This document shows positions 2,821 to 39,631 of a stretch of 39,631 nucleotides of DNA, in pieces. The position numbers were made by a program, and so were the translations under genes. The notes beneath the pieces are model-generated. The model made no database searches, was not told the DNA's origin, and was given only the letters and a program-made list of their open reading frames with translations. The stretch's first letter is position 1, and every line of letters starts with the position of its first letter. Source of the stretch: Promethearchaeota archaeon Loki_b32 (lineage in GTDB: Archaea > Asgardarchaeota > Lokiarchaeia > Sigyniarchaeales > SOKP01); assembly GCA_005223125.1 (NCBI GenBank), contig NJBH01000035.1, forward strand, positions 1-39,631, written 5' to 3'.

Positions 2821-2863
2821 GCCTCAATAGCTCAGTCGGTAGAGCGTTGCCTTGGTAAGGCAA

Positions 2864-2893
2864 TTCATAAGGGATTTATCCCTTTGAGCTTAT
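2864..2893 (+). other. BHB intron 1 of tRNA-Thr (position 43/44)
   Basis: The 30-nt insert folds as a bulge-helix-bulge. The central 4 bp are AGGC (2858-2861) with GCTT (2888-2891), one pair being G·U. The 3-nt bulges are AAT (2862-2864) and ATA (2892-2894). The inner helix runs TCA/TGA then AAGGGA/TCCCTT with one bulged T. Cutting after the second base of each bulge removes exactly 2864-2893 and restores variable loop AGGTC. The outer helix is weak. Confidence 0.75.
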
Positions 2894-3886: not shown

Positions 3887-3939
3887 TTACTAATCTTAAT
3901 ATACCTTATAGGCCGGTGTGGCTTAGCTGGTTATAAAGC

Positions 3940-3967
3940 ATTTGAGATAATCATATGTTTAATAGGC
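3940..3967 (+). other. Intron 1 of tRNA-Met, near position 25/26
   Basis: About 28 extra nt separate D-stem AAGC (3936-3939) from G26 and anticodon stem CCAGA. Because GC is repeated at both ends, the exact border can slide by up to two bases. AAGCAT (3936-3941) can pair with ATGTTT (3955-3960), so the D-stem strand may pair with the intron before splicing. No strict BHB was found by hand. Confidence 0.6.
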
Positions 3968-3980
3968 GCCAGACTCATAA

Positions 3981-4013
3981 TCCTACTGAAAAAATGGGTC
4001 AGACTGGATGTAT
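3981..4013 (+). other. Canonical 37/38 BHB intron of tRNA-Met
   Basis: A 33-nt insert follows A37. CAT of the anticodon pairs with ATG (4008-4010). The bulges are AAT (3979-3981) and ATT (4012-4014). The inner helix is CC/GG plus CTGA/TCAG. Cutting after the second base of each bulge joins CTCATAA to TCTGG exactly. The central helix has one T·T mismatch. Confidence 0.82.
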
Positions 4014-4318
4014 TCTGGAGGTTCGAGGGCTCGAATCCCTCCACCGGCACTCTTTTTACATTAAAAAAATTATATTAAAATTGGAATTAGTTTATTCTGA
4101 AATTCCCAGATTTAAGTATACAATAGAGACTTTCCTTTCAGGAATAGATGTTATGCCAATGGTTGGTTTAATGAAGCCTGACTTTTAAAATCCCCATACT
4201 TTTTTGATTTATAGTATTTATATTTTAAATTCACTTCTTTTTTAATTTGAAGTGTTTGATATTATTTAGATTAAGAACCTAAAAGGTTTTTTATAGCAAT
4301 ATCTTAAATAAAATTGTT

Positions 4319-37501: not shown

Positions 37502-37837
37502 TCAGTAGCTTTCTTTCCTTAATTTTCTCAAAGAAGGTATAACTCCTTTCTTTAAACAATCAGTACAATACCAACACTTATGCCGCGGAATGTAGATTCT
37601 GTCTCCGTCTAACTTAGAGCATACACTACACACTAAAATTGAATCACGATAATTTTGACGGAATTGTTCAAGCTTTCGAAGAAGTGATAGTTGCTCATTT
37701 CCCTCCGCACCTAACCACAGTGCTTTAAGAGCTGCCTCCTGATCATAAAAAGTGTTCATTAGAACTTTCCTTAAATTAAGTCTTACATTTCTAAGTCTCG
37801 AGTCTTTAATTCTAATAATTCTTTGTCTTCTTAGCAT
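37502..37837 (-). CDS. Small protein with C-terminal zinc-binding motif
   Basis: A 111-residue protein of unrecognised family. The first 65 residues are basic and helical. The C-terminal part has C70-x2-C73, then H86, C88, C91 and C94 ('VCSVC' and 'HKCWYCTDC'), which could bind one or two zinc ions. The spacing resembles half of a RING or treble-clef finger but does not complete a canonical RING. It lies 35 bases downstream of the HNH-like gene on the same strand, so the two are probably expressed together. DNA, RNA or protein binding are all possible. Confidence 0.6.
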   Translation of the reverse strand: MLRRQRIIRIKDSRLRNVRLNLRKVLMNTFYDQEAALKALWLGAEGNEQLSLLRKLEQFRQNYRDSILVCSVCSKLDGDRIYIPRHKCWYCTDCLKKGVIPSLRKLRKESY

Positions 37838-37872
37838 TCTTAATAATAATATAAAAAATTAATAATTTAAAA

Positions 37873-39195
37873 TTATGGATTAGGATTACCAAGGAAATTC
37901 GTAATTTGAACTTGCGAGGAGACTAAACCAAGCTTACTCAGAATGGTATTTGGCAATTTTGGTATTGTATTATATTTTTGAATCCAACTATGTATCATAC
38001 CTCTTATTCCTAATTCAATAGTTCTAGCGGCGACATTTGATCCAAAGACTCTCTCAATAACATCAGGATAAAAATCTAAAAGAAATCTACCCACTCCTTC
38101 TTTCTTTATAAAATTTCGTCTATCTATAACTTCCGCCCATTGTTCCCTCCAAGTATCTGGATAAGAATTCTTATAATAATCTGGACAAGAATCACTGCTC
38201 CAATCAAGCATTTGATCTATTAGCGTATTAATTAATTTAGCATCTAAATTTTCCAAGTAAGGATGCAAACCTTTTAAAACAAGGACAATCCTATTGGGAT
38301 CAATAGATTTTTTATCGTTCTTAAAAATATGATGACGTTCAAACTTGAATCTATCTCTAAGAGAAATTTTGAAGGATATAGAATCAATTTTTTCTAACGA
38401 TCCTATACCAATACCTAAATCCCGAAGTAATAAAGCAATAATATGAAAATCAATCACATCTGGGTTCAACCAATCTTGATTATATTCCTTTTTTGAAGCT
38501 GTGACTTCACGTCTACTCAAATATTCACGAATTGCACTTGAAGCACGACGATAATTTTCTCCTGTAAACTCTTTTCTAAGAGTACCAATTTGGTAAAAAT
38601 TACCCTTAAATTCACCAATTAGACTAGTAAGAGTCCTCCAACTCATAGGACTAGCAGCTCTAGCAAATAAAAATCCAAAATGTCCACCAAGTCGTTCAGC
38701 GAACTCTTTGTGGGATAATGGTCTATTATTCTCTTTTGAAAATGCAATATACAGCTCTGAACACAAGTCATATTCAGGAGCAAAATACGAAGCACTACGA
38801 CGGATATAACTGGATCTAGCATGTATATATTTTCTTTCAAATGGATTACCGAAAATGAATGATTTAACTATCTTTTTGATACTTTCTTTTAATCTTTGTA
38901 CACTAAACTCATTAGCTTCGCTAATACCAAGTTGCCTTAGTTTACTAACAGTAATTTTCTCATTGAGATAAAGTAATTCAAATAATTTATAAAGATTAAT
39001 ATACTCATGCCCAGATGCAGAGAAAACTCCAACTCTACTATTTTTATTATAAAAAATCTTAGTAAGCAAATTTCCGCTAAATCCTCTTCGATTGCCCGTA
39101 TCCTTGTAGCGTGGAAATTCCGACAAAAAGACCTTCTGCAACCAACTCCCTAGGGAGTCTCTGATTGGAGTTCTTGTAGTTGAAACACCAGACAA
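37873..39195 (-). CDS. Possible HNH-nuclease-like protein
   Basis: A 440-residue protein, basic in its first half. I do not recognise the whole family. Near residues 285-315, 'FKFERHHIFKNDKK', then 'DPNRIVLVLKGLHPYL', has the order and spacing of an HNH endonuclease core (H-H-I, N, H), which usually reads 'HHI.P...N.I.L....H'. The supporting CxxC pairs common in HNH proteins are missing. The N-terminal 'RDSLGSWLQKVFLSEFPR' and several Arg/Ser-rich helices suggest nucleic-acid contact. With the downstream zinc protein it may be part of a mobile or defence unit. It is divergent from the gene at 39438. Confidence 0.5.
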   Translation of the reverse strand: MSGVSTTRTPIRDSLGSWLQKVFLSEFPRYKDTGNRRGFSGNLLTKIFYNKNSRVGVFSASGHEYINLYKLFELLYLNEKITVSKLRQLGISEANEFSVQRLKESIKKIVKSFIFGNPFERKYIHARSSYIRRSASYFAPEYDLCSELYIAFSKENNRPLSHKEFAERLGGHFGFLFARAASPMSWRTLTSLIGEFKGNFYQIGTLRKEFTGENYRRASSAIREYLSRREVTASKKEYNQDWLNPDVIDFHIIALLLRDLGIGIGSLEKIDSISFKISLRDRFKFERHHIFKNDKKSIDPNRIVLVLKGLHPYLENLDAKLINTLIDQMLDWSSDSCPDYYKNSYPDTWREQWAEVIDRRNFIKKEGVGRFLLDFYPDVIERVFGSNVAARTIELGIRGMIHSWIQKYNTIPKLPNTILSKLGLVSSQVQITNFLGNPNP

Positions 39196-39437
39196 TTTTT
39201 TTTTTAATTTTAAGTATTTATTAATAACTTAATAAATCAAAAATCGTAAAAAATACCAATGCTAAGTATTAAAATTATAAGTCAGTTTTTAAATTACAAG
39301 ATGTACTAGATTTTTTAGTTTTTTTTAGTTTTTTATTTATAGGGTATTATCAAACCGAAAAAATCGGCAAATTTTAGAGAGAATTTGCTTAATCATTCGT
39401 TGTAAATACACTAATTTGTTGATACAAGGAAATAAAA
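39196..39437. other. Divergent intergenic region with two hairpins
   Basis: About 240 bases of T-rich DNA between two divergent genes. Two short hairpins lie side by side: CCGA/TCGG (39356-39368) and CAAATT/AATTTG (39370-39389). They may be operators or a 5' leader structure for the gene starting at 39438. Confidence 0.4.
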
Positions 39438-39631
39438 TTGCGTAACAAAGAAAGTCGTAACAAGGTAGCCGCAGGTTCCCCTACGGCGGTTTTTTTAGAT
39501 AGCACAAATGAAGAATTCGCCTCCCTAAATTGTGTGATTAGAAATAATTTATTTGAAAACAATACCTCTTATGCTTTAATCCTTTCAGCTTTTATGGAAC
39601 AAAGTTTTACTGAGTATCAGAGATTAAGTAT
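39438..39631 (+). CDS. 5' part of an unidentified gene containing 16S rRNA-like sequence
   Basis: A frame open to the window edge (64 codons). It starts at TTG with AGGA (39427-39430) seven bases upstream; a stop at 39420-39422 excludes a longer start. The product begins 'MRNKESRNKVAAGSPTAVFL' and continues 'DSTNEEFASLNCVIRN...'. Codons 5 to 17 are formed by sequence from the 3' end of 16S rRNA. After that the peptide has ordinary soluble-protein composition. The family is not recognised. It could be a mobile-element protein (inference from the HNH-like neighbour). Confidence 0.6.
   Translation, partial: MRNKESRNKVAAGSPTAVFLDSTNEEFASLNCVIRNNLFENNTSYALILSAFMEQSFTEYQRLS
39452..39487 (+). repeat. 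16S rRNA 3'-end fragment with helix 45 inverted
   Basis: AAGTCGTAACAAGGTAGCCG (39452-39471) equals the universal 16S segment before helix 45. The next part, 39468-39487, is the exact reverse complement of archaeal helix 45 (GCCGTAGGGGAACCTGCGGC), so the hairpin is flipped in place and has a TTCC loop instead of GGAA. The preceding decoding helix and the following anti-Shine-Dalgarno tail are absent, so this is not a 16S gene. Confidence 0.85.

Follow-up and report, generated by a model that had tools for sequence, protein, structure and literature searches.

What is the sequence at the extreme 3' end of contig C56, where a piece of 16S rRNA is followed by an inverted helix 45? The analysis covered the whole contig, called here the window (39,631 nt), and the odd feature occupies its final 180 nt. 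We consider it likely that these 180 nt are an artefact, a chimeric contig tail originating from a chimeric read or molecule.

The 16S-like sequence was first compared with the other contigs of the same genome. The 20-nt match to the universal 16S segment that had been noticed in the original prediction is exact with the genome's own 16S gene on contig C48, and the perfect reverse complement of helix 45, claimed over 20 nt, extends to 21 nt (Table 1). Chance was rightly excluded, as about 1e-4 matches of a 20-mer to 16S are expected across the whole window. The source on C48 was called archaeal SSU rRNA by Rfam, whereas on the window Rfam reported no rRNA at the mosaic site and only two tRNAs elsewhere. 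A search of the own genome with RF01959 returned nothing, although Rfam detects the 16S end on C48. The 16S gene at C48:148725-149096 runs off the contig end, and in this assembly no more than the gene's 3' part was found. Carry-over of the primer 1492R was also considered. The match of the 16S piece begins at the start of the primer's complement and 20 of the 22 nt agree (GCCGCA versus GCCGTA, by eye). This candidate was rejected, as the agreement stops at these 20 nt and no amplicon sequence follows.

Table 1. Pieces of the mosaic at the 3' end of the window and the reading frame that spans them
Feature	Position	Strand	Basis
Left AT-rich sequence up to junction 1	39196..39451		no other substantial match in own genome
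16S rRNA 3' region, sense, 20 nt, AAGTCGTAACAAGGTAGCCG	39452..39471	+	exact match to own 16S, contig C48
Inverted helix 45, 21 nt, AGCCGCAGGTTCCCCTACGGC	39467..39487	-	exact match to reverse complement of own 16S
GG at junction 3	39488..39489		junction comparison with C65
Interior of NosD-like right-handed beta-helix gene, 122 nt	39490..39611	+	100% match to C65:14543-14664 (minus strand)
Last 20 nt, then contig end (junction 4)	39612..39631		own-genome search
64-codon ORF of the original prediction, open at contig end	39438..39629	+	ORF list; spans the putative chimera

The tail is a mosaic with four junctions within 180 nt, at 39451/39452, 39467-39471, 39487-39490 and 39611/39612. Junction 2 is a switch across the inverted repeat of helix 45, where the two 16S pieces overlap by the 5 nt AGCCG that are common to both 16S strands. 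Junction 3 is without clear homology and lies near a T-run, which reads GGG and 8 T in C65 and GG and 7 T in the window. For the terminal 20-22 nt no second match was found in the own genome when up to 2 mismatches were allowed. Both donors, the 16S on C48 and the beta-helix gene on C65, are undisturbed elsewhere in the same assembly.

The donor ORF on C65 is intact, encodes 379 aa and matches Beta_helix/NosD in Pfam. The reading of the window, FLDSTNEEFASLNCVIRNNLFENNTSYALILSAFMEQSFT, is in this gene's own frame. The mosaic reads without stops because the frame is inherited from the interior of the C65 gene, and the open reading is therefore silent on the 16S pieces. The 16S sequence had been described as lying in frame inside a gene, just after a ribosome-binding site and a TTG start. 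The stop-free reading was confirmed but the gene was not, since the frame is that of the copied 122 nt, and the ribosome-binding site and start codon turned out to be mere sequence resemblance without support. The 64-codon ORF gave no Pfam match and is most likely a reading that spans a chimera and not a gene. In G014, a genome of the same genus, an orthologue of the beta-helix gene has 91% DNA identity across the same 122 nt.

An element with a function, or a site that is commonly targeted, would be expected in other genomes as well. With a degenerate pattern, no exact match of the flipped helix 45 was found in 84,980 species genomes or in IMG/VR, and allowing up to 3 mismatches gave 0 hits among the other 227 genomes of the phylum. 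A search of the tail within the genus recovered only ordinary 16S genes and the one beta-helix orthologue of G014. Since the flip does not recur, it does not represent a conserved element. A mobile element or gene with the 3' end of 16S as its cargo or target had been proposed and is highly improbable, given that no genome or viral contig searched contains the flip and that the protein encoded downstream is, according to Pfam, part of a NosD-like beta-helix protein rather than a member of a transposase or homing family. The proposal gains something from the neighbouring gene p440, which belongs to a patchily distributed family and has a degenerate partial second copy in the own genome, on C36. 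However, searches with p440 gave no match in Pfam or PADLOC and nothing credible in NCBIfam, and the gene does not reach into the mosaic, as its N-terminus ends at 39195.

The p440 gene encodes a 440-aa protein and forms a two-gene pair with a gene for a 111-aa zinc-ribbon-like protein (37502-39195, minus strand). The protein contains the motif HHIF..D..S.DPN, which looks HNH-like by eye. The two genes are adjacent in several relatives (G005, G007, G014 and G017) and possibly constitute an uncharacterised mobile or defence module. Relatives carry longer homologues of p440, of 533 and 594 aa, and in the best match the alignment begins only at residue 171 of the homologue. The missing N-terminus was not found on contig C22, and no p440 relatives were confirmed among the 84,980 species genomes. 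In G014 the pair and the beta-helix orthologue lie about 4 kb apart on a single contig with ribosomal-protein-like ORFs between them, and this contig shows no collinearity with the mosaic. In the relatives, folP directly precedes gyrB. In this genome, the zinc-ribbon-like ORF and p440 come before gyrB on C56, and folP is found near the start of C22. Plausibly, the end of C56 and the start of C22 flank a single assembly gap that falls within a species-specific insertion.

We then considered whether the tail could be an mRNA leader that mimics rRNA and binds ribosomes or the methylase KsgA/Dim1. The resemblance to 16S is all that speaks for such a mimic. The plus strand presents a UUCC loop instead of GGAA and contains a C/A mismatch. 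The predicted hairpin has -10.1 kcal/mol (z -1.1), compared with -19.4 kcal/mol (z -4.0) for the native helix, which was folded as a longer segment of 36 nt. Shuffled sequences folded as well in 28 of 200 cases for the flipped helix and in 0 of 200 for the native one. In addition, the anti-Shine-Dalgarno tail is not included in the copied piece, no complete gene follows downstream and the 227 relatives hold no conserved copy. The suggested mimicry of rRNA or of a KsgA substrate is thus extremely improbable.

The assembly that holds C56 comprises 71 contigs with 4.13 Mb and is 95.5% complete with 4.6% contamination. When 101 fetched 1-kb contig ends were compared with each other, exactly 127 nt were common to many pairs of ends, and two further end overlaps of 127 nt were found when contig ends were searched against the whole genome. 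These exact overlaps are the signature of a short-read de Bruijn assembly with k=127. The end of C56 has no 127-mer in common with another contig of its genome, and the longest shared piece is the one of 122 nt. An assembler with k=127 can pass a piece of this length, and the break thus resembles a dead end more than the edge of a repeat.

Other contig ends were surveyed for similar tails. Among 20 other ends (170 nt each) searched against the whole own genome, 0 had a mosaic tail; this search detects pieces of the own genome and is blind to chimeras with foreign DNA. The mutual comparison of the 101 ends likewise revealed no similar chimeric tail. As the surveyed ends lack such a tail, the mosaic of C56 is singular among them. 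A scan for abrupt GC shifts at contig ends gave no clear second case. The starts of contigs C2, C6 and C13 have a GC content of about 0.5 or more in the otherwise AT-rich genome. By eye, the C2 start resembles an animal glycosidase gene and the C13 start bacterial DNA, which suggests that foreign contigs are present in the genome bin.

All parts of the mosaic can be explained by template switching in vitro. One chimeric library fragment or read would have joined four scraps, beginning with the true sequence to about 39451 and continuing with 20 nt of 16S. A template switch across the inverted repeat of helix 45 (AGCCG...CGGCT) would then have led to 21 nt of the opposite 16S strand, and the last scrap would be the 122 nt of the C65 beta-helix gene with the terminal 20 nt. 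The short-read assembler, having no better-supported continuation, would have kept the chimera as a contig end. We infer that the pieces were joined in vitro, while the DNA was amplified, end-repaired or made into a library, and not in the cell. Of the suggestions in the original prediction, only a hairpin-mediated chimera of amplification or assembly fits the mosaic at the contig end and the helix-45 repeat at one of its junctions.

The chimera is favoured by the place of the mosaic at the very end of a contig that breaks off in an apparent dead end, by the lack of the flip in all other genomes searched, by the origin of the pieces from two distant contigs, C48 and C65, and by the fact that the sequence is inverted at one of the four junctions, where a natural inverted repeat provides a microhomology of 5 nt. 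Against it counts that four switches in 180 nt are many for one library molecule and that at 39451 the assembly contains no alternative branch. Further, a random metagenomic chimera need not draw its pieces from the same genome bin, but the 122-nt piece comes from this bin and not from another member of the community. The chimeras that arise in MDA are mostly of the inverted type, with pieces that meet at short complementary stretches (85% of 475; PMC1855051). The tail resembles these by its inverted join with short complementarity and by pieces of one genome that are out of order, but its four junctions in 180 nt are dense. Flips at inverted repeats have also been described as an artefact of library end repair (PMC10908179). 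As in these PDSM artefacts, the inverted sequence lies between repeat arms, here AGCCG/CGGCT of helix 45, but the PDSM model alone leaves the join to the C65 gene unexplained.

The main rival is a scar in the genome, since a cell that repairs a DNA break could switch templates by the same steps. When breaks are repaired with templated insertions, short copies from distant loci are joined in series, and the tail has the same arrangement. Here, short 16S pieces with a fold-back at helix 45 and the piece of the C65 gene would have been copied into a break near p440, perhaps in only a part of the population. Every identifiable piece can derive from the same genome, the site lies within the species-specific insertion beside gyrB, and the lack of mosaic tails at the other surveyed contig ends counts for the scar as it counts against the chimera. 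On the other side, the tail is confined to the dead end of a contig, where the sequence stops. It differs in this from the known break-repair insertions, as its status as an insertion is not demonstrable from one flank. A real scar should also have been assembled through, because a repeat of 122 nt would not stop a k=127 assembler, and it is absent from every relative examined. We therefore regard a scar of this kind as unlikely, and the serial copying of 16S rDNA and a distant gene into a break of the archaeal chromosome, as a genuine template-switch insertion, as slightly less likely still. Were it real, the tail would be one of the rare recorded cases of a multi-part templated insertion in an archaeon. 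With the chimera as the preferred reading, a striking but probably false lead is removed, and a practical check follows: where a contig ends in a mosaic of exact pieces that lie on further contigs of its genome, a chimera should be assumed unless reads show the contrary.

In the same assembly, the 25-kb contig C8 has an inverted repeat of about 120 nt (94%) at its two ends. The contig was considered as a linear element and set aside because its genes look chromosomal, among them a sugar phosphorylase-like gene and an ABC transporter. The two tRNA genes that Rfam found on the window are located at 2821-2891 (+) and 3912-4049 (+), and neither was reported by ARAGORN in the bacterial mode. The latter spans 138 nt and may contain an intron.
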